A stretch of DNA of 45,724 nucleotides, taken from contig CASGBM010000002.1 of the NCBI GenBank assembly GCA_949299615.1, positions 1-45,724 of the forward strand. Reading direction: 5' to 3'. Position numbers and translations under genes: made by a program. This stretch comes from an uncultured Eubacteriales bacterium (GTDB taxonomy: Bacteria; Bacillota; Clostridia; UBA1381; UBA9506). The notes below the pieces were generated by a model. That model did not search any database, was not told the DNA's origin, and worked only from the letters and a program-made list of their open reading frames with translations. The stretch's first letter is position 1. Each line of letters starts with the position of its first letter. Positions 2,032-26,835 of the stretch are shown piece by piece.

Positions 2032-2064
2032 TCGGATTTGGACGCATTATGCGTCCAAATCCGA
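2032..2064 (-). terminator. 15-bp hairpin whose loop is the rex stop codon
   Basis: Bases 2032-2046 and 2050-2064 are perfect inverted repeats of 15 bp (TCGGATTTGGACGCA and its complement) separated only by 2047-2049, which is the TAA stop codon of rex on the minus strand. A second, shorter hairpin with a T-run (CCAC-AGCA-GTGG-TTTTT, about 1978-1993) lies between it and the tRNA. The first stem has no strong T-run directly after it, so it may act in mRNA 3'-end protection as well as in termination. Confidence 0.55.
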
Positions 2065-2706
2065 TGCTGTATTTCCCTCTGTTATTTTATAAGACAGCGT
2101 CATCAAGCTGTCGCTCAAATGCACGTTTTCTACTGCAACATCATCCGGCACATCAATATCTGTATACGAAAAATTCCAAAGACCCTTAATGCCAAGAGCA
2201 ACCAAGCGGTCAACCACTTCTTTTACGCTGTGTTTCGGCAGGGCCAAAATGGCGATATCCGCCCCTTTTTCACGGAAAAAATCCTCAATGGTATCAATGT
2301 GCGATACTGGGATTTGATTAATCCTGCTCCCGACCAGCTCCGAATTATTGTCGAAAATACCAACCAAATGAAAACCGCGTTTTTCAAAATTAGAGTGATT
2401 TGCCAAAGCATGACCCAAATTTCCCGCACCGATAATAATTGTCCGGTAGCCGCGGGAAAGGCCCAAAATTTCCCCGATCTCATGATACAGGTTCTCGATT
2501 TTATAGCCATATCCCTGCTGGCCAAATCCGCCGAAACAGTTTAAATCCTGGCGAATCTGCGACGCTGTAACGCCCATTTTTTCGCTCAAATGCTTTGACG
2601 AAATCCGCGTCACTCCTTGTTTGAGCAATTCTCCCAGATAACGATAGTATCGGGGAAGACGTTTAATCACAACCAAAGGCACGCTTTTATTATTTTCGCT
2701 CTTCAT
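2047..2706 (-). CDS. rex: Redox-sensing transcriptional repressor Rex
   Basis: 219 residues, the usual Rex length. Residues 1-80 form the winged-helix DNA-binding domain (KRLPRYYRYL; ISSKHLSEKMGVTASQIRQDL; CFGGFGQQGYGY). Residues 87-200 form a Rossmann NAD(H)-binding domain with GAGNLG at 93-98 and a domain-swapping C-terminal helix. Rex binds its operators when NAD+ is high and releases them when NADH accumulates, inducing fermentation and hydrogenase genes. The ATG has an AGAGGA site upstream. It lies 92 bases after the isocitrate dehydrogenase gene and is probably in the same operon. Matching Rex operators are present elsewhere in this window, at 26818-26835 and 18797-18814. Confidence 0.95.
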   Translation of the reverse strand: MKSENNKSVPLVVIKRLPRYYRYLGELLKQGVTRISSKHLSEKMGVTASQIRQDLNCFGGFGQQGYGYKIENLYHEIGEILGLSRGYRTIIIGAGNLGHALANHSNFEKRGFHLVGIFDNNSELVGSRINQIPVSHIDTIEDFFREKGADIAILALPKHSVKEVVDRLVALGIKGLWNFSYTDIDVPDDVAVENVHLSDSLMTLSYKITEGNTASDLDA

Positions 2707-2798: not shown

Positions 2799-3959
2799 TT
2801 ACAGTTTTTGAATGGTTTCCATGACATAATCTGCAAATTCTTCGCCCGTTGCGCCTGTATCCCGTCCGGTAATGACCAATTTCTTCTCTTCATACATACA
2901 AATATCCAGCGCACGCTCCAGTTTTTTCGCTTCCTGCGCATAACCAATATGGGACAGGAGCATGACTGCCGCACGGATAATACTGCAAGGATCCGCATAT
3001 TTGTCGCGGCCCTCCTGCACCATGCGCGGCGCACTGCCGTGAATCGCTTCAAACATCGCATAGCGCTTGCCCAGGTTAGAGCTGCCGGCTGTGCCGACGC
3101 CGCCCTGGAATTCTGCCGCCTCATCCGTAATGATGTCTCCGTACAAATTCGGCAGGACAACGACCTGGAAACCGGTGCGGCGTTTTTCATCTACCAGTTT
3201 TGCGGTCATAATATCAATATACCAGTCATCAAATTCAATGCCCGGATATTCTTTCGCTACTTCTTTGCAAATATTTAAAAACTTCCCGTCTGTCGTTTTA
3301 ATGACATTGGCTTTTGTTACGGCAGTCACACGGGTTTTCCCATTTTTCTTCGCATAGTCAAACGCCGCGCGCGCAATGCGCTCAGAACCTTCCTGCGTGG
3401 TAACGGTAAAGTCAACCGCCAGATCGTCATTGACATGCACGCCTTCGCTTCCCACCGCGTAGGCGCCTTCTGTATTTTCACGGAAAAATGTCCAGTCAAT
3501 CCCTTTTTCCGGGACTTTCACCGGGCGGACATTTGCAAACAGGTCAAGCTCCTTTCTCATTGCCACATTGGCGCTTTCGATATTCGGCCACGGGTCTCCT
3601 GCACGGGGGGTGGTAGTAGGTCCTTTTAAAATTACATGGCAAGCTTTAATTTCCTCTAAAACGTCATCCGGGATCGCTTTGTTGGCTTTCACCCGGTTTT
3701 CAATCGTCAAGCCGTCAATCACACGAAATTCTACCTTGCCTTTTTTCACTTCGCCTTCCAGCAAAAACTCCAAAATTTTGTGGGCAGCCCGCGTAATGGC
3801 AGGACCAATCCCATCGCCGCCGCATACGCCGATAATAATGGTATCCAGCTTGCTGTAATCAATAAAATCCTTCTGCGCTTTCATCCTGTCAACCCGCGCC
3901 AGCTGTTTTTCCAAAAGCTGCGCAAACTGTTCGGTTGCTTTTTGTATGGTTTCGTTCAT
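2799..3959 (-). CDS. icd: NAD-type isocitrate dehydrogenase (isocitrate/isopropylmalate dehydrogenase family)
   Basis: 386 residues from the ATG at 3959, which has AAAGGAAA upstream. The family signature is clear: GGDGIGP near residue 48, the substrate loop ANVAMRKELDLFANVRP, the metal and substrate segment NLYGDIITDEAA, and GSAPR. These enzymes decarboxylate isocitrate, isopropylmalate or homoisocitrate. The position directly behind aconitase, 61 bases away, makes isocitrate the likely substrate, giving 2-oxoglutarate for glutamate synthesis. The first 35 residues are a helical extension ahead of the core. NAD rather than NADP use is inferred from the overall family type and not shown by a decisive residue. 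Confidence 0.85.
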   Translation of the reverse strand: MNETIQKATEQFAQLLEKQLARVDRMKAQKDFIDYSKLDTIIIGVCGGDGIGPAITRAAHKILEFLLEGEVKKGKVEFRVIDGLTIENRVKANKAIPDDVLEEIKACHVILKGPTTTPRAGDPWPNIESANVAMRKELDLFANVRPVKVPEKGIDWTFFRENTEGAYAVGSEGVHVNDDLAVDFTVTTQEGSERIARAAFDYAKKNGKTRVTAVTKANVIKTTDGKFLNICKEVAKEYPGIEFDDWYIDIMTAKLVDEKRRTGFQVVVLPNLYGDIITDEAAEFQGGVGTAGSSNLGKRYAMFEAIHGSAPRMVQEGRDKYADPCSIIRAAVMLLSHIGYAQEAKKLERALDICMYEEKKLVITGRDTGATGEEFADYVMETIQKL

Positions 3960-4020
3960 GTTGTTTTTCCTTTCCGTGCCGGGGCACAAAATAATGTCTT
4001 TTCCAAATCAAACCGGGCAA

Positions 4021-5949
4021 TCAGGCATTTGCCTTTTTGATAAAATTAATGAGTCCGCCGGCATAGAGCATTTCTTTCTGTCTGTCAGAAACGGTCAGAA
4101 TCGTAACGTATTCCCGATTTTTCGTCAGGTTCTTCACCACAATTTTATCTCCGGCTTTGATCTGCTCTTGCGCATGCGCAATCGTCAGTTCATCCATCAT
4201 ATCAATGGTATCATAATCCGCTTCGTTTTCAAACACCAGCGGTAAAATTCCGGAATTAATCAGGTTTGCCATATGAATCCGGGCAAACGACTTTGCCAAA
4301 ACTGCTTTAATCCCAAGGTAGAGCGGAGCGAGCGCCGCATGTTCCCGGCTGGAACCCTGCCCGTAGTTGGAACCGCCCACGATAAATCCGCCTTTGTTTT
4401 CCTGCGCCCGTTTTGGAAATTCCGGATCGCAGGGAGTCAGGCAAAATTCCGAAAGATACGGCACGTTGGAACGGAAAGGCAGCAGCTTGGCATTCGACGG
4501 CATAATATGGTCTGTCGTAATATTGTCGCCCACCTTGATCAGCGCCTTGCCGATTACATTTTCCGGCAATTCTGTATTAAGCGGGAACGGCTTGATATTC
4601 GGGCCGCGAACCACTTCTACATCATTTCCTTCCGGAGCCGGAGGAGTCACCATATTATCATTGGCTAAAAATTCACTCGGCATGCTAACAGAAGGCGCCT
4701 CGCCCAATTCTCTCGGATCGGTCAAAACACCGGTAATTGCGCTGACTGCCGCCGTTTCTGGGCTGACGAGATACACCTGTGCAGAAACTGTTCCGCTTCT
4801 GCCTTCAAAGTTACGGTTAAACGTACGCAAAGAAACCGCATCCGTCTTCGGAGACTGGCCCATTCCGATACACGGACCGCAGGAAGATTCCAAAATTCTT
4901 GCGCCTGCCGCAACCATGTCCGCAAGAGCACCGTTTTCCGCCAGCATGGTAAGAACCTGTTTCGAGCCCGGGGAAATAACAAGGCTTACATCCGGGTGAA
5001 CGGTTTTCCCTTTTAAAATTTTTGCCACTTTCATCATATCAACAAAAGAGGAGTTTGTGCAGCTTCCGATCGCCACCTGATCCACTTTGATTTTTCCGAT
5101 ATTATTCACTTCTTCCACGTTGTCCGGGCTGTGCGGTTTTGCCGCCAGCGGCTCAAGCGCAGATAAATCAATCGTGATTTCTTCGTCATACGTACAATCT
5201 GCATCCGGCTTAAGCTCTACAAAATCCTGCTCTCTGCCCTGCGCTTTTAAAAATGCGCGGGTTGTTTCATCACTCGGGAAGATCGAGGTGGTAGCGCCCA
5301 GTTCTGCGCCCATATTCGTAATCGTAGCGCGCTCCGGAACCGTAAGGCTTGCCACGCCTTCGCCGGCATATTCCACCACTTTGCCCACGCCGCCTTTTAC
5401 GGACAGCTTGCGGAGTACTTCTAAAATTACGTCTTTTGCAGTCACCCACGGGCGAAGCTTACCCACAAGATTGACTTTTAAAACTTTCGGCATCATGAGA
5501 TAATACGCGCCGCCGCCCATGGCAACCGCAACGTCCAAACCGCCTGCGCCGATTGCGAGCATCCCCAGGCCGCCGCCCGTCGGCGTGTGGCTGTCAGAGC
5601 CCAAAAGTGTCATGCCCGGAACGCCGAACCGCTCCAGCTGAACCTGGTGACAAATTCCGTTCCCGGGGCGGGAGAAATAAATCCCGTGTTTATTCGTAAC
5701 TGTCTGGATATATTTATGATCGTCCGCATTTTCAAAACCGGATTGCAGCATATTATGGTCTATGTAGGCCACCGATTTTTTCGTTTTGACCCGGTCAATT
5801 CCCATTGCTTCAAACTGAAGGTACGCCATCGTACCCGTAGAATCCTGTGTCAGCGTCTGGTCAATCCGAATGGAAATTTCCGTTCCGGGCACCATTTCGC
5901 CGCTCACCAGATGCTCTTTAATGATTTTCTGCGCTAAATTCAAACCCAT
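4021..5949 (-). CDS. acn: Aconitate hydratase
   Basis: 642 residues from the ATG at 5949, preceded by AAAGGA at good spacing; an ATG two codons earlier is possible. It interconverts citrate and isocitrate. The [4Fe-4S] ligands are Cys297 (GSCTNSS), Cys357 and Cys360 (SSCGPCIG). The active-site segments LLGSDSHTPTGGG, SNYGQGSSREHAAL and ANLINSGILPL are present. It is first in a likely operon with isocitrate dehydrogenase and rex, driven by the promoter at 6011-6038. This is the partial TCA branch that strict anaerobes use to make 2-oxoglutarate. Confidence 0.95.
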   Translation of the reverse strand: MGLNLAQKIIKEHLVSGEMVPGTEISIRIDQTLTQDSTGTMAYLQFEAMGIDRVKTKKSVAYIDHNMLQSGFENADDHKYIQTVTNKHGIYFSRPGNGICHQVQLERFGVPGMTLLGSDSHTPTGGGLGMLAIGAGGLDVAVAMGGGAYYLMMPKVLKVNLVGKLRPWVTAKDVILEVLRKLSVKGGVGKVVEYAGEGVASLTVPERATITNMGAELGATTSIFPSDETTRAFLKAQGREQDFVELKPDADCTYDEEITIDLSALEPLAAKPHSPDNVEEVNNIGKIKVDQVAIGSCTNSSFVDMMKVAKILKGKTVHPDVSLVISPGSKQVLTMLAENGALADMVAAGARILESSCGPCIGMGQSPKTDAVSLRTFNRNFEGRSGTVSAQVYLVSPETAAVSAITGVLTDPRELGEAPSVSMPSEFLANDNMVTPPAPEGNDVEVVRGPNIKPFPLNTELPENVIGKALIKVGDNITTDHIMPSNAKLLPFRSNVPYLSEFCLTPCDPEFPKRAQENKGGFIVGGSNYGQGSSREHAALAPLYLGIKAVLAKSFARIHMANLINSGILPLVFENEADYDTIDMMDELTIAHAQEQIKAGDKIVVKNLTKNREYVTILTVSDRQKEMLYAGGLINFIKKANA

Positions 5950-6010
5950 TTGCATTATTCCTTTCCGGAGGCTTGTCCCCTCTTTGCCCCCTAAAACTAT
6001 CATAAATAAT

Positions 6011-6038
6011 ATTATATCAATTTTTAAAAATTTGTCAA
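6011..6038 (-). promoter_or_regulatory. Sigma-A-type promoter of acn-icd-rex
   Basis: On the minus strand TTGACA (6033-6038), a 16-base spacer and TATAAT (6011-6016). This would start transcription about 55 bases ahead of acn. No Rex operator is visible in it. Confidence 0.8.
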
Positions 6039-6122
6039 GAAATTATCAACGCATTTCCCGTGCGGAAAACAGAATCAAGCGCCCGTTTTCCTCCGCGGTA
6101 TCCGGCAGAAAAGCAGGCGCGT

Positions 6123-13854: not shown

Positions 13855-14655
13855 CTATTCTTCTCCGCGCTTTTTAAACTCAATCACGTGTCTCGGGCAT
13901 TTAGACGCGCAGATTCCGCAGTTTACGCACTTATCATAATCGATTTTCGCAATATTATCCACAACGTGGATTGCGTCTTTCGGGCAATTCTTTTCACAGA
14001 TTTTACAGCCGATACAACCCGCCTGGCAAATATCTTTAATCACAACGCCTTTTTCTTTCGAGCGGCAGACCACAAACGTCCGCTGTTTTGCCGGGACAAG
14101 CTCGATGATCCGCTTCGGGCAGGTGGAAACACACGCACCGCATCCTGTACATTTGTCCCGGTCCACATGCGCTACGCCGTCGATGACATGAATTGCATCA
14201 AACAGACAGGCGCGCACACAGCTGCCATATCCCGTACAGCCGTACAGGCAGGTTTTTTCTCCGCCGCCGAACCGGTACACCGCCACACAATCCGTAATCC
14301 CGTCGTATTGATATTTTACCGATGTTTTGTCACACGTGCCGCTGCAAAGGACTTTTGCAACCATTTTTTCGCCGTCCTCCACCGAAACACCCATGATTTC
14401 TGCAATTTGATGGATATTTTCTTTTTTCGTGCTGGGACAGGCAGAAGGGTTTGCTTTTCCTGCCACAACTGCCTCGGCAAACGCCGAACAGCCGGCATAA
14501 CCGCAGCCGCCGCAGTTTGCGCCCGCCAAAAGCTCCTGCACCTGTTCAATGCGCTCATCTTTTTCCACCCGGAACGCCTTTGCCGCAACGCCGAGTAGCG
14601 CGCCGAACACCAGCCCCATAACTCCGAGAACTATAACCGGAATGATGATTTCCAT
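13855..14655 (-). CDS. rnfB: Rnf complex iron-sulfur subunit RnfB
   Basis: 266 residues. An N-terminal membrane anchor (residues 3-27) is followed by a [4Fe-4S] domain with Cys48, Cys51, Cys56 and Cys73 (NCGGCGYAGC ... CP). Several ferredoxin-type C-x2-C-x2-C-x3-CP motifs then run to the C terminus (CTGCGACVSTCP, CIGCKICEKNCP, CVNCGICASKCP, plus an atypical CLYGCTGYGSCVRAC). RnfB is the likely entry point for electrons from reduced ferredoxin. It starts 12 bases after rnfA with AAGGAGG. Confidence 0.95.
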   Translation of the reverse strand: MEIIIPVIVLGVMGLVFGALLGVAAKAFRVEKDERIEQVQELLAGANCGGCGYAGCSAFAEAVVAGKANPSACPSTKKENIHQIAEIMGVSVEDGEKMVAKVLCSGTCDKTSVKYQYDGITDCVAVYRFGGGEKTCLYGCTGYGSCVRACLFDAIHVIDGVAHVDRDKCTGCGACVSTCPKRIIELVPAKQRTFVVCRSKEKGVVIKDICQAGCIGCKICEKNCPKDAIHVVDNIAKIDYDKCVNCGICASKCPRHVIEFKKRGEE

Positions 14656-14667
14656 GTACCTGCCTCC

Positions 14668-15255
14668 TTAAAATTTCAAACCCTGGAATCCTAAAAACGC
14701 CATGGCGATCAGCCCCGCCGTAATCAGCGCGATCGGGAACCCCTGCAACGGTTTCGGAATGTCTGAGGTTTCCAGCCGCTCGCGCACGCCGGCAAACAGC
14801 ACAATCGCCAGCATGAACGAAATCCCGCCGGAAAAGCCGAACACAACCGAATGGATAAAATCGTACTGTTCCTGCACATTTAAAAGCGCAACGCCCAGCA
14901 CGGCGCAGTTTGTCGTTATCAGCGGGAGATAAATCCCCAGCGCATTATAAAGCGACGGGCTGAATTTTTGAATAACCATCTCCACAAACTGCACCAGCAC
15001 GGCGATCACCAAAATAAACGCCACCGTCTGCATATAGCCGATTCCGAGCGCATCCAGCAAAAAGACCTGCACGAGGTAGGTGCACGCGGAAGCCACCGTC
15101 ATGACAAACGTAACCGCCAGGCTCATCCCCACCGCGGTTTCCACTTTTTTTGAAACACCGAGAAAGGGGCAGATCCCGAGGAATTTTACCAATACAAAAT
15201 TGTTTACTAATATCGTACTCAAAGAAAGCAAGACCAATTCCACAAGCAAGCTCAT
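14668..15255 (-). CDS. rnfA: Rnf complex membrane subunit RnfA
   Basis: 195 residues with six hydrophobic segments, homologous to RnfE/NqrD/NqrE. The conserved [18 protein letters not shown] near residue 18 includes the Cys of the membrane-embedded iron-sulfur centre shared between RnfA and RnfE. Its ATG overlaps the rnfE stop by 4 bases, implying translational coupling. Confidence 0.95.
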
Positions 15256-15860
15256 TCTTTTGCGCCCCCTTTCTCCTTCCGGCTGCGGATCAGGTTAATG
15301 CCGCCGATTAAAAGCCCCAGCACCATAAACGCTCCCGGAGGAAGAATTAAAATCGTCGCAGGGGAAAAACCGCTGCCAAAGACCGAGATTCCTAAAAATG
15401 TACCGTTTCCTAATATCTCGCGGATGGCGCTGATAATTGTGAGCGCGCCGGTAAAGCCCAGCCCGATTCCCAAGCCGTCGAGCGCAGAATTTCCGACCGT
15501 GTTTTTTGACGCGAACGCCTCGGCGCGCGCCAAAATAATACAGTTTACCACGATCAGCGGGATAAACAGCCCCAGCGATTTTGCAATGTCCGGCAAAAAT
15601 GCTTTTAAAAGCATTTCAATCGCGCTGACAAAGCCGGCGATAATGACAATATAAGAAGCAATTCGTATTTTATTCGGAATGAATTTGCGGCACAGCGAAA
15701 TTACGATATTTGACGCTACCAATACCGCCGTGGCAGAAAGCCCCATCCCGATCCCGTTTGTTATGCTTGTTGTTACGGCAAGGGTCGGACACATGCCCAA
15801 AAGCAGGACAAACGTCGGGTTTTCCTGAATCAGCCCTTTGGTAAATTCTTTTATCTGCAT
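15252..15860 (-). CDS. rnfE: Rnf complex membrane subunit RnfE
   Basis: 202 residues with six membrane segments. It carries the paired motif [17 protein letters not shown] near residue 15 and the internal-repeat counterpart [13 protein letters not shown] near 115. It works with RnfA in moving electrons across the membrane. The start follows GGGAGGG, 13 bases after rnfG. Confidence 0.95.
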
Positions 15861-15873
15861 CCTGCGTCCCTCC

Positions 15874-16446
15874 CTACTGTAAATTTTTCACGGCATCTAC
15901 GGCGGCATTTACGCCCTCCGTCACCGCGTTTGACGTAATGGTCGCGCCGGAGATTGCCACAACTTCATTGTCTTTCGGCGTACCGCTTTTAATCACAGAA
16001 AGCGGATCTTTTACCGTTTTCCCATCAAACTGATCTTTAAATTTCGGCTCCTGTGCTTTCGAGCCCAGGCCCGGTGTTTCCGACAGAGAAACGATTTTGA
16101 TTCCTGTAAGCGTTTCATCCGGCTTTACGCCGACCATAATTTCAATCGCGCCGCCAAAGCCATTCGGGCTGACGCTCACGCAATAGCCGATCCGCTCTCC
16201 GGATGCGTCTTTTGCCGCATAAATTTCTTTCACGGGGACAGCCTGCTCCGCAAGGCCTGTCTCAATTTTTTCAAACTCTGCCGCGTCCGCCATAACCTCC
16301 TGGCGCGCCGCGGTTTGCTCTTTTTCGGTATTTTCTGCGATTTTCTGCTCCGTTACATCATTGGTAAAAGCCAAAAGCAGCGCCACCACAGCAGTAATGG
16401 CGAACAGGATCCCTGCCAGCACGATGGGGTTTTCATTTTTCTGCAT
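15874..16446 (-). CDS. rnfG: Rnf complex flavoprotein subunit RnfG
   Basis: 190 residues from the ATG at 16446, which has AGGAGG 8 bases upstream and overlaps the end of rnfD by 14 bases; upstream in-frame starts lack a site. One N-terminal membrane segment (residues 8-28) is followed by an extracytoplasmic FMN-binding domain. The covalent FMN-threonine motif is SGAT at residues 166-169. ApbE-type flavin transferase, needed for attachment, is not encoded in this window. Confidence 0.93.
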   Translation of the reverse strand: MQKNENPIVLAGILFAITAVVALLLAFTNDVTEQKIAENTEKEQTAARQEVMADAAEFEKIETGLAEQAVPVKEIYAAKDASGERIGYCVSVSPNGFGGAIEIMVGVKPDETLTGIKIVSLSETPGLGSKAQEPKFKDQFDGKTVKDPLSVIKSGTPKDNEVVAISGATITSNAVTEGVNAAVDAVKNLQ

Positions 16447-17428
16447 TCTTGCCGCCTCCTTTTGCCACTGTGCCAAACGTTTTCGGCCGGCAGTATTTAT
16501 CAATCAGCGGCGTTGCAATATTCATCAGCAAAATCGCGTAGGAAACGCCTTCCGGATAGCCGCCGAATTTTCGTATAATAAACGTAATCACCCCACAGCC
16601 GATTCCCATAATGACCTGACCCTTTGCCGTCATCGGCGAGGTCACGTAATCTGTCGCCATGAAAATCGCACCTAAAAACAAGCCGCCGCCCAAGAGGTTA
16701 TAGAGCATGCTGTCAAACGCGCTCAAATCCCCGGACGAGAACAAAAAGGTCAGCACTGCTACCGTGCCGATAAAGCAAAGCGGGATCCGCGGGCTGATCA
16801 CCTTGCGGATGACGAGGTAAATTCCGCCCAAAAGCAGCGCAAGCGCCGAGGTTTCCCCCATGCAACCGCCGATGTTTCCCAAAAACATATCCAGAAGGGA
16901 AGGAAACTCCCCCTCCGCCGTTCCTTTTAAAATCGCGAGCGGCGTTGCGCTGCTGACCAAATCCGGTGCAACCGTAAATCCTGTGGTAAACGGAAGCACC
17001 CAGCGCGTCATCAAAACCGGCCAGGAGGCGAGCAAAAACGCCCTGCCAGCCAGGGCAGGATTGACAAAATTATGCCCCGTTCCGCCGAACAATTGCTTTG
17101 CAATGATGATTGCCACAAACGAACCAACTACCATCATCCACCACGGCGCTGTGACCGGCACGTTCATTGCCAAAAGCACGCCTGTCACCACAGCGGTCCC
17201 ATCGGATATGGTCACCGGCTTTTTCGTTATTTTCTGCCACAAAAACTCAAACCCCACGCACGAAAGCACCGTGACCGCCACCAAAAACAGCGCGCGGAAG
17301 CCAAAATAAACCACGCCGCACAAAAGCGCCGGCACAAGCGCAATCAGCACATCGCGCATAATGACCGAGGTTGTCTCTTTCGACCGGATATGCGGCGACG
17401 AGGATACCACCAATAATTGATCAGCCAT
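16433..17428 (-). CDS. rnfD: Rnf complex membrane flavoprotein RnfD
   Basis: 331 residues with about nine membrane segments. The FMN attachment threonine is Thr162 in SSATPLA. TDYVTSPMT near residue 255 and GGTGHNFVNPALAGRAF near 115 are standard RnfD/NqrB segments. It forms part of the ion-translocating core. It overlaps the rnfC stop by 8 bases. Confidence 0.95.
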   Translation of the reverse strand: MADQLLVVSSSPHIRSKETTSVIMRDVLIALVPALLCGVVYFGFRALFLVAVTVLSCVGFEFLWQKITKKPVTISDGTAVVTGVLLAMNVPVTAPWWMMVVGSFVAIIIAKQLFGGTGHNFVNPALAGRAFLLASWPVLMTRWVLPFTTGFTVAPDLVSSATPLAILKGTAEGEFPSLLDMFLGNIGGCMGETSALALLLGGIYLVIRKVISPRIPLCFIGTVAVLTFLFSSGDLSAFDSMLYNLLGGGLFLGAIFMATDYVTSPMTAKGQVIMGIGCGVITFIIRKFGGYPEGVSYAILLMNIATPLIDKYCRPKTFGTVAKGGGKNAEK

Positions 17429-18764
17429 TTTTGTTCCCCCTTGCCCTCTCTTTTGCTCTTTTAATCTGGAGCTGTTGTTTGCCCCAACGAATCGACTGTA
17501 CCAAGTGCCTCTGCGCCGGGCAGGTATACGAACAGCTGCCGCATTCGATACAATCCATCAAGTGATATTTTTCACACTGCTCCAAATTTTTGCGGATAGA
17601 ATGTGCGCTCAGCATCGCCGGAATCAAATTCATCGGGCAAACCTCCACGCACTTCCCGCACCGGATACAGTTCGACGTCGAACGGATCGAAACTTCACTT
17701 TCCGTAAACGCCAAAATCCCGGACGTCCCTTTTACCACCGGCACATCCAGCGAATATCCGCTAATTCCCATCATGGGACCGCCCATCACAATTTTTTTCG
17801 GTTCCTCGGTAAATCCGCCCGCCTGCTCGATGACATAACGAAACGGCGTACCGATCCGCACCCGAAAGTTAGCCGGATGTTTTACCGCGCCGCCGGCAAC
17901 GGTGACCACCCGCCGCATGAGCGGCAGACCAAGGCGCACAGCGCGGGAAATTTCCACCGCCGTATCCACGTTAATCACCACACAGCCCACATCCATCGGC
18001 AGTCCGCCGGAAGGTACCTCGCGCCCGGTTACCGCACGGATCAGCTGTTTTTCCGCCCCCTGCGGATATTTTTTCGCAAGCGTAAGCACGTGGATTCCTT
18101 TTGCCTTTTCTGCGGCAGATGATATGGCAGAAATGGCGTCCGGTTTGTTTTCTTCAATCCCGATATATGCCTCATTAAGAGAAAAAATCTTCATCACTGC
18201 GCGCAGTCCGAAAATGACGTCTTCCGGCTGTTCGAGCATCACCCGGTGGTCTGATGTTAAATACGGCTCGCACTCAGCGCCGTTTACAATGATATATGTA
18301 ATCTTTTTCTCCGGCGGCGGCGAAAGCTTGACATGCGTCGGAAACCCTGCGCCCCCCATGCCGACAATACCGGCTTCGCGCACAAGCCCGACCAGTTCTT
18401 TCGGCGCTAGTTCCTCCAGTGTCTTCGTGTTCAGCGGCTCCTCCGGCGTATCTTTGCCGTCGTTTTCAATGACAATCGTCGGCATTTTTAAACCAGTCGG
18501 ATACAGATAAAGCCCAATGTCTTTTACCGTTCCCGAAACACTCGCATGCAGCGGCACGCTCATGTATGCGTCGCTGTCGGCAATTTTTTGCCCCATTTTG
18601 ACGGTATCGCCAACCGATACCAAAGAAGAAAGCGGCGCGCCGATGTGCTGCTGCATCGGAAAATACAGCGTATCCGGCGGCGCAAGCTCCCGGATGGGGA
18701 TTTGATTGGTGGCGGATTTGCTATCGTTTGGGTGGATTCCGCCCTTAAAGGTCAATTTTTGCAT
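17421..18764 (-). CDS. rnfC: Rnf complex NADH-binding subunit RnfC
   Basis: 447 residues. The order is an N-terminal barrel-like domain, an NADH/FMN-binding region (GMGGAGFPTHVK near residue 137; NGAECEPYLT), a SLBB segment, and two [4Fe-4S] motifs CIRCGKCVEVCP and CIECGSCSYTCP near 370-415. RnfC exchanges electrons with NAD+/NADH. It is the first gene of the operon. AAAGGA precedes the ATG. The 5' leader holds a Rex-type operator at 18797-18814 and a terminator-like hairpin at 18821-18850. Confidence 0.95.
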   Translation of the reverse strand: MQKLTFKGGIHPNDSKSATNQIPIRELAPPDTLYFPMQQHIGAPLSSLVSVGDTVKMGQKIADSDAYMSVPLHASVSGTVKDIGLYLYPTGLKMPTIVIENDGKDTPEEPLNTKTLEELAPKELVGLVREAGIVGMGGAGFPTHVKLSPPPEKKITYIIVNGAECEPYLTSDHRVMLEQPEDVIFGLRAVMKIFSLNEAYIGIEENKPDAISAISSAAEKAKGIHVLTLAKKYPQGAEKQLIRAVTGREVPSGGLPMDVGCVVINVDTAVEISRAVRLGLPLMRRVVTVAGGAVKHPANFRVRIGTPFRYVIEQAGGFTEEPKKIVMGGPMMGISGYSLDVPVVKGTSGILAFTESEVSIRSTSNCIRCGKCVEVCPMNLIPAMLSAHSIRKNLEQCEKYHLMDCIECGSCSYTCPAQRHLVQSIRWGKQQLQIKRAKERARGNKNG

Positions 18765-18796
18765 AAAAACCGTCCTTTCAGCCTGAAATATCCAAA

Positions 18797-18814
18797 TTGT
18801 GAATCATTTCACAT
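18797..18814 (-). promoter_or_regulatory. Rex-type operator in the rnf leader
   Basis: TTGTGAATCATTTCACAT on the plus strand holds both half-sites TGTGAA and TTCACA with a 4-base spacer, the classical Rex pattern (TTGTGAA-N4-TTCACAA). It lies 33 bases before the rnfC ATG. Confidence 0.65.
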
Positions 18815-18820
18815 TCTCTC

Positions 18821-18850
18821 AAAAAGACAAAAACGGCGCCGAAGCACCGT
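18821..18850 (-). terminator. Terminator-like hairpin inside the rnf leader
   Basis: On the minus strand ACGGTGC, loop TTCG, GCGCCGT, then TTTTTGTCTTTTT. It sits between the predicted promoter (18922-18950) and rnfC, so it could attenuate rnf transcription. The upstream methyltransferase gene already has its own terminator. Confidence 0.65.
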
Positions 18851-18921
18851 AATCATCCTCATTTTTCCGGCAGGACCGCCGCGTTGTCTTAAAAAGATAG
18901 GCGGTTGCCGAAACCATTCTT

Positions 18922-18950
18922 ATTATAATACAAAACTTTCTGTTTGGCAA
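18922..18950 (-). promoter_or_regulatory. Sigma-A promoter of the rnf operon
   Basis: On the minus strand TTGCCA (18945-18950), exactly 17 bases, TATAAT (18922-18927). It predicts a leader of about 150 bases. Confidence 0.75.
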
Positions 18951-22046: not shown

Positions 22047-23495
22047 TTATTTATCGATAATATGCAGCACGCTGATGGTATCTTTAATCTTCTTTTCCTT
22101 CGCCAGCATACCATATTGATCTACCAGGCTCTTGTCCTTGGGCTCATGCGTAAGGCACGCTGCGCCGCCGATGCAGCCGCCGACACAAGCCATTCCTTCA
22201 ATAAAGTTTTCTTTGAGTACGCCTTTTTTCTCTTTTAAAAGAGCAATCCGGCACTGCTCAATCCCGTCGCAGACCGCCGCATGCAAACGGAATTGCTCCT
22301 CGGTGATCCCGTGTTCGGAAAGCGCCTGCGCTACAGCATCGGACAAACCGCCGCTGCGAGCAAAAATCCGTCCGAAATAGGATGCGTTGTCTAAAATGTC
22401 TTCCTCCAGCTCAGACAGCTCAATATCGCGGCTGTCGATCATCGCTTGCAGTTCTTCAAACGTCAGGACGCAGTCCATAATCCCGGCAAGCTCTTCTTTT
22501 TGATATTCCATTTTCTTTGCCGTACAGGGCCCGATAAAGATCGTTTTGCAGTCTGGGTGCGACGCTTTGATATATTTCGCAATTTCCATCATCGGAGATA
22601 TGTTGTGCGAAACGATCGGTTTGAGTTCCGGAAAACTTTTTTCTATGTACGATACAAAAGCCGGGCAGCAAGAGCTGGTCAGCTTTCCTTTTTCTGCCAG
22701 TTCCGCCGCTTCTTTATACGCAACCATATCGGCGCCGAGCGCCGCTTCTACAACGCTGTAAAAACCAAGTTTTTTCAGCCCGGTGACAACCTGTCCGATT
22801 TTGGCATAGGAAAACTGTGCGCTGATGGACGGGGCGATAATGGCATAGACCTGATATTTGCTGTTATTTTCGGATTCTTTTAAAATTCGGATGGCGTCTG
22901 TGATAAACGACTTATCTACGATAGCGCCAAACGGGCATTGATAGACGCAGGCGCCGCAGGAAATACAGATTTCGTTATCAATTTTCGCCTTTTTATTTTC
23001 ATCCATATGGATCGCGTTGATTTTGCAGGCATTTTCACAGGGGCGCACCGAGTGCTTAATGGCAGAAAACGGGCAGACAGATGCGCATTTGCCGCATTCA
23101 ATGCACTTATCATAATCAATCTGCGCCTTTTGGTTTACAATGGTAATCGCGCCGACGGGGCAATTATTCTCACAGCGGTGTGCAATACAGCCGCGGCAGG
23201 AATCGCCGACGGAGTAGCTTTGTACCGGACATTCGTCGCAGGCAATGGAAAGCGTTTCGATCACGTTCGGGTTATTTTTATTGCCGCCGAGCGCCAGTTC
23301 AATGCGCTCTTCCACAATGGCGCGTTCTTTATAGATACAGCAGCGCATAGTAGCTTCGGGTCCTTCTACAATTTTCTGCGGAATTTCATAGTGGCAGCGC
23401 TCTAGCTTATCTTCAAAAGCGTATCGCGCAACTTCTTTCAGCACTTTATACTTTAAAAGCTGCACATCCGTATCAAAAATGCGTGTTTTTTTCAT
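22047..23495 (-). CDS. [FeFe]-hydrogenase, multi-cluster monomer (group B-like)
   Basis: 482 residues. A Cys-rich N-terminal half binds several [4Fe-4S] clusters (CDEC near 86, CRGC-x4-C-x3-CP near 100-112, CIECGKCASVCP at 131, CENAC at 153, CISCGACVYQCP at 177). The H-cluster domain follows, with L1 SCCPAF (275-280), L2 PCTAKKME (323-330) and L3 MACVGGCIGGAA (435-446). The L1 Phe replaces the usual Trp, and L3 has GGAA where group A has GGGG, so group B is more likely. There is no [2Fe-2S] N-terminal domain. It probably oxidises ferredoxin to make H2. It is the last gene of the operon, 38 bases after the phosphatase. Confidence 0.85.
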   Translation of the reverse strand: MKKTRIFDTDVQLLKYKVLKEVARYAFEDKLERCHYEIPQKIVEGPEATMRCCIYKERAIVEERIELALGGNKNNPNVIETLSIACDECPVQSYSVGDSCRGCIAHRCENNCPVGAITIVNQKAQIDYDKCIECGKCASVCPFSAIKHSVRPCENACKINAIHMDENKKAKIDNEICISCGACVYQCPFGAIVDKSFITDAIRILKESENNSKYQVYAIIAPSISAQFSYAKIGQVVTGLKKLGFYSVVEAALGADMVAYKEAAELAEKGKLTSSCCPAFVSYIEKSFPELKPIVSHNISPMMEIAKYIKASHPDCKTIFIGPCTAKKMEYQKEELAGIMDCVLTFEELQAMIDSRDIELSELEEDILDNASYFGRIFARSGGLSDAVAQALSEHGITEEQFRLHAAVCDGIEQCRIALLKEKKGVLKENFIEGMACVGGCIGGAACLTHEPKDKSLVDQYGMLAKEKKIKDTISVLHIIDK

Positions 23496-23533
23496 GATTT
23501 CTCCATTCCTTTATTCATATTTCCATTCTCTCT

Positions 23534-24703
23534 TTAAAAATACATTACTTTCACATGTTTACCCATTTCCTCCAGCCGTTTGGTCAGCTCTTCAATCAGT
23601 TTCAGCTTCAGGCTGAAGCTAAGGGGCAGGCTGGGGTTTTGGTGCGCGGCGTTTTTTGCACGTCCCACAAAAAAATTGATGTCCGTTGCCTCTTCAAACA
23701 GCATCTGGGCTATCAGCGACGCGCCGTCGTGCTTATCGCGAAACTGCGTGTAAAAATCTGTGTTATTGGAAAAACTTTCGGCGATTTCCAGTACTTTTCC
23801 CAAAGTCAGCACGCCTTCTGTCACCAGGTCAATCCCCTCAATGTGGGCAATCGGCGGAATAGAAGGGTCCTCATAATTAATTTCCGTTTTAATCGGTTTG
23901 TTAAGGTATCGGCTGATGATATTCGACGTGGTGCCGCCGCAGACAATCCGCTTGCCTTCTTTGGAAAAATAAAGCTGCATCACTTTTTCATCATCTTCCG
24001 GGTTTACCGGCGGCCCGATGATCAGATTTACCAGCTGGCGCTCGCGGATACGCAGCGCGGCAATGGTGGTGTCATCGCCCGGCTTTTCCATGTACAAATC
24101 CTTGCAGGCTTCCCCAATCCGGCTTGCCATTGTCTGCGCAGACATGTCCGGCCGAAAATTACCCTCGGCAAACTCCGTCACCTGGGGCAGCTGCCAGCCG
24201 TAATTGAGCGTACGCTCAATCCCGGCGTGAATCACACCGTCGCTCATCAGGATAAACATATCACCCAGCTCACAATGAATGTGCGACTCACAAATGGTCT
24301 TGCCGCAAATCGTTTTTTTCTCCATTTCATAAGGAAACGCATGGCCGCCGCGCAGCAAAATCACGCTGGGGTTGTCAAACTGCACAAGATAGGCTTCTCT
24401 GCCATGATGCACCTGCAAAATAGTAAAGGTTGAATAGGCAACACCGCGCACCTGGCAAACCGGCAGCGTTTCCGCAATCGTTTCCACACAATCTTCAATC
24501 GGCATTCCGCTTGCCATCATCGTCCCGATAATTTTTGATGTCAGCGTAGAAAGGATATTCGCTTTCACGCCGCTGCCTAAACCATCTGCCAAAACGATCG
24601 TAAAATCATCTTCATAGCTGATGGTTTCCACCTTGTCCCCGCACAGCTGCTCGCCGTATTTATTTAAGCTGACATATCCGCTTTCCACAAACATATTATT
24701 CAT
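23534..24703 (-). CDS. SpoIIE/PP2C-type serine phosphatase linked to a sensory hydrogenase
   Basis: 389 residues. The N-terminal 210 residues form a PP2C/SpoIIE phosphatase fold: metal-binding DGLGSG near residue 40, MSDGVIHAG near 155, and PGDDTTIAAL near 213. The C-terminal 160 residues (from NLIIGPPVNPEDDEK) form a second domain I cannot name, also containing CGGTTSNI. The ATG at 24703 overlaps the sensory hydrogenase gene by 8 bases, so the two are translationally coupled. This supports a pathway in which the hydrogenase-like sensor controls dephosphorylation of a partner. No cognate kinase or anti-sigma factor is encoded nearby. Confidence 0.85.
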   Translation of the reverse strand: MNNMFVESGYVSLNKYGEQLCGDKVETISYEDDFTIVLADGLGSGVKANILSTLTSKIIGTMMASGMPIEDCVETIAETLPVCQVRGVAYSTFTILQVHHGREAYLVQFDNPSVILLRGGHAFPYEMEKKTICGKTICESHIHCELGDMFILMSDGVIHAGIERTLNYGWQLPQVTEFAEGNFRPDMSAQTMASRIGEACKDLYMEKPGDDTTIAALRIRERQLVNLIIGPPVNPEDDEKVMQLYFSKEGKRIVCGGTTSNIISRYLNKPIKTEINYEDPSIPPIAHIEGIDLVTEGVLTLGKVLEIAESFSNNTDFYTQFRDKHDGASLIAQMLFEEATDINFFVGRAKNAAHQNPSLPLSFSLKLKLIEELTKRLEEMGKHVKVMYF

Positions 24704-26402
24704 CGGAGGATCCCTCCACTGAAATCGCTTCTTTCAGTTTAGTGAGTGCGATTTTCGTTTCCGCTGTGGTTTCGCCCAAAAGCGATGCGATTTCCTGTAC
24801 AACGCGCATTTGTTTTTCAATGACCTTGTCCGCCGTATTCACTGTTTTTTGACGGATTTCATTTACTTTCTGCTCTTCCAGCTGCTCATCAGTAATATCT
24901 TTCATAATGCTGATAATCAGCTTATGCTCTTTATCGTACAAAATGGATTCTTTAACATATTTTTCATATTCCGCTAAATACCTTCGCTGTTCCATGCGCG
25001 TTTGACCGCTTGACAAAATTTCCAAATACGGCTTGGGATCAAGCACCTCTACCGCCGGCATGTTTTTCACCTGCAGCGAACCGGCAAGGTTAAACAGGCG
25101 TTTTGCCGCGCGGTTCATCTGCTGAATGTTGAGCTGATCGTCAAAAACAACGATCGCATTCGGCGTGAGCATAATGATTTTATCGGAAAAAGACTCCGCC
25201 TTTTCCATCATAAACGGCAGGCACATGCTCGGTTCGGCTTTTCCCAGGAAAACCGCCACCGCTTTTTCCCGGCAGGTTGCATAGCCGCAGGTACCGCAGT
25301 TTAGCTCGTGTTCCGGCTTCGTTTTTCCCATGCTTTCCAAAATCGCCGTAATCTGTTCTTCGCTCGGCATCACATGGCTTACGGTTGCCGGAGTAAAGTT
25401 CTGCGCAAGGTCAATCTTCGTCTCAATATTAAAATCATCGCGGCTTTTTGCTTCAAGCGGCTTGGCAAAATCGCGCAGCTTAATGGTGCAGTCCAGCATT
25501 TCTTCGCGATACCGGCGCACCATCGGCCCGTTAATGCAGCTGCCGCGGCAAATGCTCATTTCAACAAAACAATGGCTTAACTTTCCGCTGACAATGTTTT
25601 TTAAGGCGGCAATGCAGTCTTTTACGCCGTCAACGGCAAGATAGCGAAAATCGCTGCCGTCCGTATTCATGGACTCAATAATGCCGCCCGTTTCCGGGAA
25701 AAAGCGCGACATGCGCGTATCCTGTGTGACATCATCTGCCGGCGCAAGGTTTGTGTTTTCTTCAGCAAACCATTCTCTGAGCTCCTCATAGGTTAAAACG
25801 CAGTCAACCAGCCCCGGGTTTTCATCCGCCTCGTCCTTTTTGGAAATACAAGGACCGATAAATACAACATAAGCATTTGGATCTTCTTCTTTTATCATTT
25901 TTGCGTGCGCAAGCATCGGCGAAAGCACATGTGCAAGATAAGGGATTGCTTCCGGATAATATTTGCGCACAAGCAGGATCGTAGAATGGCAGCAGGTAGA
26001 AATAATCACGTCCTGGCTGGCGCTTGCTACCATCCGCTCGTATTCGCTTTTCACCACATAGGCTCCCTCTGCGGTTTCGCGCGCAGAATCAAAGCCCAGC
26101 TTGCGGAGCCAGCCTTCCATCTCTCCAAGGTCGCGCGCGTCAAAATCAACGATAAAAGACGGGGCAACGCTTGCGATTACACGCTTGCCGGCACGAATGG
26201 CGTCCTTTACTTTAGAAACGTCGTGGCGCACATCTTTTGCGTTTTGCGGACAGGCAACCACACAGCGGCCGCATAAAATACATTCCTGCGGCAGAATATT
26301 TGCCTGCTGGTCAGAAAACTGGATGGATTTGACCGGGCACTCGCGGATACACTTATGACAATTTTTACAGTTTGCCTTTTTAAGACCTAAAATTTGATTC
26401 AC
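24696..26402 (-). CDS. hydS: Sensory [FeFe]-hydrogenase with PAS domain (HydS-like, group C)
   Basis: 568 residues, GTG start with a GGGGGG site. Two ferredoxin-type clusters lie at residues 12-51 (CKNCHKCIRECP, CILCGRCVVACP). The H-cluster domain has L1 STCCH (135-139), L2 PCISKKDE (184-191) and L3 SICRGSC (283-289), all diverged from catalytic forms as in the group C proteins. An RnfB-like cluster motif CGTCGYATC-x16-C follows at 369-394. A PAS domain covers about 410-510, and a coiled-coil tail ends the protein. Group C proteins are thought to sense H2 or redox state. It is coupled to the phosphatase gene, so the PAS region may pass the signal to it. Confidence 0.85.
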   Translation of the reverse strand: MNQILGLKKANCKNCHKCIRECPVKSIQFSDQQANILPQECILCGRCVVACPQNAKDVRHDVSKVKDAIRAGKRVIASVAPSFIVDFDARDLGEMEGWLRKLGFDSARETAEGAYVVKSEYERMVASASQDVIISTCCHSTILLVRKYYPEAIPYLAHVLSPMLAHAKMIKEEDPNAYVVFIGPCISKKDEADENPGLVDCVLTYEELREWFAEENTNLAPADDVTQDTRMSRFFPETGGIIESMNTDGSDFRYLAVDGVKDCIAALKNIVSGKLSHCFVEMSICRGSCINGPMVRRYREEMLDCTIKLRDFAKPLEAKSRDDFNIETKIDLAQNFTPATVSHVMPSEEQITAILESMGKTKPEHELNCGTCGYATCREKAVAVFLGKAEPSMCLPFMMEKAESFSDKIIMLTPNAIVVFDDQLNIQQMNRAAKRLFNLAGSLQVKNMPAVEVLDPKPYLEILSSGQTRMEQRRYLAEYEKYVKESILYDKEHKLIISIMKDITDEQLEEQKVNEIRQKTVNTADKVIEKQMRVVQEIASLLGETTAETKIALTKLKEAISVEGSSDE

Positions 26403-26417
26403 AAATCATCCCCCCTG

Positions 26418-26663
26418 TTAACGGCAGGCGTCTAAGACGTATTTTTGAAACACCTCGTGCATGTTCTCCCGGTTTACGCCTAAAACCAACTCATCATCTA
26501 CCTTTACCGTCACGCCGTCCATGCATTTTCCCAGACAAAACGCGGCGGAAAGCTCCACTTTGTCCTGCAACTGGTTCTTTTCAATCAGTTCTTTAAACGT
26601 ATTGATGATGTCATACGACCCTTTTAAGTGGCAGGAACTGCCGATACACACACTAACGACCAT
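26418..26663 (-). CDS. Thioredoxin-like [2Fe-2S] ferredoxin
   Basis: 81 residues from the ATG at 26663, set by GGAGGAGG. Cys at CIGSSC (residues 6 and 11) and at CLGKC (near 45-50) form the [2Fe-2S] pattern of the NuoE/HydC-like thioredoxin-fold ferredoxins. It is first in the hydrogenase operon, 15 bases before the sensory hydrogenase, and probably passes electrons to or from it. Confidence 0.85.
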   Translation of the reverse strand: MVVSVCIGSSCHLKGSYDIINTFKELIEKNQLQDKVELSAAFCLGKCMDGVTVKVDDELVLGVNRENMHEVFQKYVLDACR

Positions 26664-26785
26664 TTTTCTTCCTCCTCCAAAGACAATTGGGCACTTTTTC
26701 ACCATTTTCATGCAGCGCCTGCGGGCGCGTGTTTTCATGTACGGCGCAACGTTTTAAGCGCCGCGCAAAAGCTATAATTACTCTC

Positions 26786-26817: not shown

Positions 26818-26835
26818 CTGTGAAAAATTTAACAT
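26818..26835. promoter_or_regulatory. Rex-type operator at the hydrogenase promoter
   Basis: CTGTGAAAAATTTAACAT holds TGTGAA, 4 bases, TTAACA: one half-site of the TGTGAA type and one of the clostridial TTAACA type. It ends 3 bases from the -35 hexamer, a position where Rex would hinder RNA polymerase. ACAGCTGT, a palindrome, overlaps the -35 side (26814-26821). Confidence 0.6.

Follow-up and report, generated by a model that had tools for sequence, protein, structure and literature searches.

Rnf is a complex that couples electron transfer to ion pumping. Its regulation by Rex is not a new proposal, as Rex sites have already been predicted before acn, hydA and rnfCDGEAB in Caproicibacterium lactatifermentans, where rex itself is part of an acn-icd-rex operon (PMC9600882). 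A clostridial Rex consensus, TTGTTAANNNNTTAACAA, is available from DAP-seq in C. thermocellum (PMC8457756), and typical targets of clostridial Rex proteins include hyd, adhE, adh and acn (PMC8457756, PMC9600882). Independently of Rex, the arrest of elongating RNA polymerase by CcpA, CodY, PurR, GalR or LacI bound downstream of the start site (roadblocking) is an established mode of repression (PMC10310618, PMC4132739).

The stretch of DNA analyzed here (the window, 45,724 nucleotides) carries rnfCDGEAB on the minus strand (18764 to 13855), composed of rnfC (17421..18764, TIGR01945, E 1e-175, start at 18764) and rnfD, rnfG, rnfE, rnfA and rnfB (13855..17428). On the same strand, a ribosome-binding site, AAGGACGG, is located at 18770..18777 and the best promoter candidate, TTGCCA-17-TATAAT (11 of 12 consensus positions), at 18922..18950. 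Upstream of rnfC, the palindrome TTGTGAATCATTTCACAT (18797-18814; ATGTGAAATGATTCACAA on the rnf strand) spans positions -50 to -33 relative to the ATG. The initial annotation had described a near-perfect TGTGAA-N4-TTCACA Rex-type site, 33 bases before rnfC and about 100 bases downstream of the best promoter. We confirm the palindrome, and the distance agrees with the promoter at 18950-18922; the Rex-type assignment is supported by the sequence, and the site is indeed close to rnfC, with an exact count of 32 bases to the ATG.

The site is an 18-base inverted repeat with half-sites 4 bases apart and differs at a single position from TTGTGAAN4TTCACAA. With at most one mismatch allowed, TTGTGAANNNNTTCACAA (TTGTGAA-N4-TTCACAA) matches the window once versus 0.02 expected, and such a match was found in two of 100 shuffled windows. 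The degenerate pattern WTGTKAANNNNTTMACAW (WTGTKAAN4TTMACAW) has only two exact matches in the 2.39-Mb genome, the second being located upstream of an operon for a NuoE-type, electron-bifurcating-type hydrogenase (contig C86), and none in 6 Mb of simulated first-order Markov sequence. At one mismatch, the genome contains 13 matches versus 13 for the reversed control pattern, and no excess over this control was seen at one to three mismatches. Because the pattern is no more frequent than its reversed version at this level, weaker matches were given no weight when they were not conserved. The rnf palindrome is genuine, and a chance origin is very unlikely.

The presumed binder is encoded in the window as well, which the initial annotation had not pointed out. 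The rex gene (2047..2706, minus strand), encoding the NADH/NAD+-sensing repressor, is the third gene of acn-icd-rex, with acn and icd (2799..6003, minus strand) upstream. The protein scores 318.6 bits against NF003990 (cut-off 233) and matches PDB 3wg9, which we take to be the Rex of Thermoanaerobacter ethanolicus, with an E value of 5e-79 and a nearly identical winged-helix region (KMGVTASQIRQDLN-FGGFGQQGYGY). A Rex-like site with the best core score in the window (6032..6049) lies over the -35 element of the acn-icd-rex promoter, and the sequence suggests autoregulation by Rex; among the congeners, only the TTGACAA half is well kept at this promoter. In all, two overlapping Rex-like palindromes cover this -35 element (6020-6049), of which TTGATAATTTCTTGACAA is the best core-scoring site of the window. 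Further strong Rex-type sites in the genome precede hyd (C86), adhE (C8), an iron-type adh (C122) and acn (identities of hyd, adhE and adh assigned from translations). At adhE, two such sites flank the -10 element.

For comparison, the window genome (G000) was set beside three MAGs of the same genus from goat and water-buffalo gut (RGIG1666, RGIG7507 and RGIG1636; G001-G003, with G002 being RGIG7507), whose RnfC proteins are 67-75% identical. Such a comparison of rnf leaders had been proposed in the initial annotation, and it shows the palindrome to be kept in all three congeners, together with a terminator discussed below. The congener sites are located 30 bases before the rnfC ATG and read TTGTGAAATGCTTAACAT once and TTGTGAAACGATTATCAA twice. 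They were scored with a position weight matrix of the 7-base half-sites, since a matrix including the spacer bases favored AT-rich spacers and was replaced. With half-sites derived only from other genes, the three sites are the best three of 80 rnfC upstream regions, and the score of each is reached by at most one of 150 simulated leaders. The remaining genera of the family lack this operator before rnfC. Rex-like sites located farther upstream of rnfC were seen in Petroclostridium, Christensenella and a few others. As a separate observation, Petroclostridium and a Clostridiales MAG have in common a sequence of the type TTGTTAA-WTAA-TTAATTAATTTGTATTTTGTATAC immediately upstream of the rnf promoter, possibly another operator arrangement. 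Given the uniqueness of the site, the presence of rex in the window, the other Rex-type sites and the conservation among congeners with changes of the Rex type in the half-sites, we predict with high confidence that 18797-18814 is a Rex operator.

These half-site changes also bear on two other readings of the palindrome. The window copy, TGTGAATCATTTCACA, matches the TGTGA-N6-TCACA pattern of CRP/FNR-type regulators, but the congener halves TTAACAT and TTATCAA destroy TCACA and fit Rex, and the site lies downstream of the promoter without CRP-type activation geometry; we therefore rejected such a site, which is very improbable. The palindrome might also act in the leader at the RNA level, as a hairpin affecting translation or mRNA stability, and the window copy is able to fold. 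However, the pairing is broken in every congener (two of seven pairs in G002 and G003, an inner pair and the end pair in G001) while the DNA half-sites stay Rex-like, so that this reading was likewise rejected and is given hardly any probability.

An intrinsic terminator, unremarked in the initial annotation, is located between the promoter and the operator (18821..18850, minus strand). Its stem, ACGGTGC-TTCG-GCGCCGT (18850-18833), is followed by a T-tract to 18821, and 19 bases (18815..18833) separate the base of the stem from the operator. A GC-rich stem with a T-tract is present in all four rnf leaders of the genus, with folding energies of -8.6 to -15.3 kcal/mol, and the stem-to-operator spacing is exactly 19 bases in all four, in a small sample in which G002 and G003 are closely alike in the rnf leader and share most of the terminator-operator block. 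The spacer sequence itself drifts, with 10-15 of 19 bases identical (4 to 9 differing) between genome pairs; the absence of indels may partly reflect limited divergence. When the same terminator rule was applied to the 77 remaining regions upstream of rnfC, a single match was returned, an unrelated sequence next to the start codon, and the terminator-operator arrangement was found in none of these 77. A DNA similarity search with the leader recovered only the terminator-to-operator block, in two congeners. Three 1-mismatch matches to this element elsewhere in the four genomes were examined and discarded, as they lie inside genes and appear chance-like.

The possibility that the terminator is a property of the upstream gene was rejected. 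In the window, that gene has its own terminator-like site (19089-19077), so that, barring another promoter behind it, the terminator is part of the rnf transcription unit, and the upstream neighbor in G002 likewise has its own terminator, ending at -209. A promoter candidate of the type TTGCMA-17-TATAAT is found in all four genomes, ending at -119, -135, -157 or -254 from the rnfC ATG. Separately, the G003 leader contains about 150 extra bases between about 100 and 300 bases before rnfC, with an imperfect inverted repeat, GTCAGACTGCGAAAAAG / CTTTTTCGACGGTCTGA, at the borders, perhaps an inserted small repeat element. Taken together, the sequence evidence supports an operator, a cognate rex, a terminator, a fixed spacing and the lack of a closer conserved promoter.

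From this arrangement, we infer Rex binding, a roadblock and, above all, a coupling between Rex and the terminator, the latter from geometry. Transcription of rnf would start about 100 bases upstream of the operator. The polymerase would pass a leader hairpin (18865..18913, minus strand) and the intrinsic terminator, after which the operator would still have to be crossed on the way to the ribosome-binding site. With NAD+ predominant, Rex would occupy the operator and halt the elongating polymerase. When a tightly bound protein stops a polymerase, the active center is positioned about 14 bases or more short of that protein. From 18814, this distance leads back to about 18828-18830, inside the T-tract. 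The RNA end of a Rex-halted polymerase would thus lie in the T-tract, and because the operator 19 bases behind the stem puts it there, Rex binding would probably raise termination by favoring release. When NADH rises, Rex would leave and read-through polymerases would enter rnf. For polymerases to get past a strong terminator, some mechanism of read-through is required; no conserved antiterminator or other read-through element was found in the rnf leaders of the four genomes. As Rnf normally makes NADH, derepression at high NADH would be a positive feedback with no evident homeostatic role, unless the complex operates in the reverse direction or contributes, together with hyd, to the production of hydrogen.

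The initial annotation had left two options for Rex at rnf, namely a roadblock or an action on a closer, weaker promoter. The second is not supported by the four genomes, among which no conserved -35/-10 pair is found between the terminator and the rnfC ATG. The roadblock is favored, on sequence grounds, as the one promoter candidate shared by the four genomes precedes both the terminator and the operator, and the 19-base placement in all four suggests that Rex blocks a moving RNA polymerase, not the promoter. We consider it rather probable that Rex acts on the elongating polymerase. The additional step, in which NAD+-bound Rex halts the polymerase in the T-tract and thereby switches the efficiency of a redox-tuned terminator, is proposed only tentatively.

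Two other arrangements have to be weighed against this. Rex could repress conventionally by blocking initiation at a weak promoter behind the terminator that overlaps the operator, the terminator then ending a separate short, leader-derived small RNA. A terminator directly before a gene indeed often separates transcription units, and promoter-like pairs do occur: a poor TTGAGA-15-CACAAT over the operator, ending at -31, in G000 alone, and a weak GTGAAA-18-TAAAAT ending at -16 in G002 and G003. These candidates are, however, weak and differently placed, transcripts in G002 and G003 would start inside the ribosome-binding site, and the only promoter common to all four genomes precedes the terminator, which makes initiation block unlikely.

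It is also conceivable, though doubtful, that the terminator belongs to an independent attenuator in which the leader RNA answers another signal, with an adjacent but uncoupled Rex roadblock; terminator and operator may simply have been retained as neighbors. The rnf leader folds better than shuffled sequence (z -2.44), which is in line with such an attenuator. On the other hand, Rfam covariance models gave no match to the rnf leader, and the leader before the terminator varies in sequence and length within the genus: the RNA is unlike and not alignable across the four genomes, and the hairpin at 18865..18913, which has no Rfam family, is not kept in sequence in the congeners. A riboswitch was rejected for the same reasons. 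The invariant spacing between stem and operator also speaks against two uncoupled devices and for the roadblock next to a coupled terminator.

The hydrogenases provide a second point of comparison. It had been proposed that one sensor may set both ferredoxin outlets, which is plausible, although the site on which this was based, at the hydrogenase cluster of the window (26818..26835), is Rex-like but weaker and located immediately before the -35 element, and no such site was seen at the closest ortholog in RGIG7507. A related operon in G002 and G003 has TTGTTATATAATTAACAA exactly over the -10 element. Since the window site is upstream of the -35 element and is not seen at the RGIG7507 ortholog, the proposal is better based on the C86 hydrogenase operon, whose Rex site is conserved in G002 and G003. 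In three genomes, the Rex site of this bifurcating-type hyd operon begins 24-25 bases downstream of the -10 element, and a Rex site in the transcribed leader is therefore not unique to rnf in the genus. Two side observations concern the hydrogenases. The Rex site of the G002 hyd operon lies within a longer inverted repeat (TTTGTATAC...GTATACAAA). In the window, a SpoIIE-type phosphatase gene (23534-24703) is flanked by two [FeFe]-hydrogenase-like genes, and a gene for a 2Fe-2S thioredoxin-like ferredoxin lies upstream; this region (22047-26738) is possibly a sensory hydrogenase module.

For an uncultured lineage of the gut, this work supports NADH/NAD+ control of Rnf, one of the main complexes by which anaerobes conserve energy. 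The rnf leader also offers a small natural system in which to ask whether the efficiency of a terminator can be determined by a repressor bound to the DNA behind it. If this is so, roadblocking and attenuation, commonly regarded as separate mechanisms, would here form a single switch, and an ordinary DNA-binding repressor would control attenuation without an RNA ligand. In the literature searched, which included few subscription journals, neither a Rex roadblock nor a repressor operator at a defined distance from a terminator was found.

In its overall layout, the system resembles that of Caproicibacterium lactatifermentans, with an acn-icd-rex operon and Rex-type sites before acn, the hydrogenase and rnf (PMC9600882). 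The rnf site of that species, TTATTCAATCTTTAACAA, is predicted at -101, and a terminator is not mentioned in the accessible text (PMC9600882), whereas the site described here lies at -50 to -33 behind a terminator. The operator type, the hydrogenase targets and the inclusion of rex in its own regulon are shared with the Rex regulon of C. thermocellum (PMC8457756); the paper nowhere uses the word rnf, and the rnf site here has TTGTGAA half-sites. As in the roadblocks by CcpA, CodY, PurR, GalR and LacI (PMC10310618, PMC4132739), a repressor within the transcribed leader would stop the elongating polymerase, but unlike in those systems, the operator is preceded here by an intrinsic terminator at a constant distance of 19 bases.
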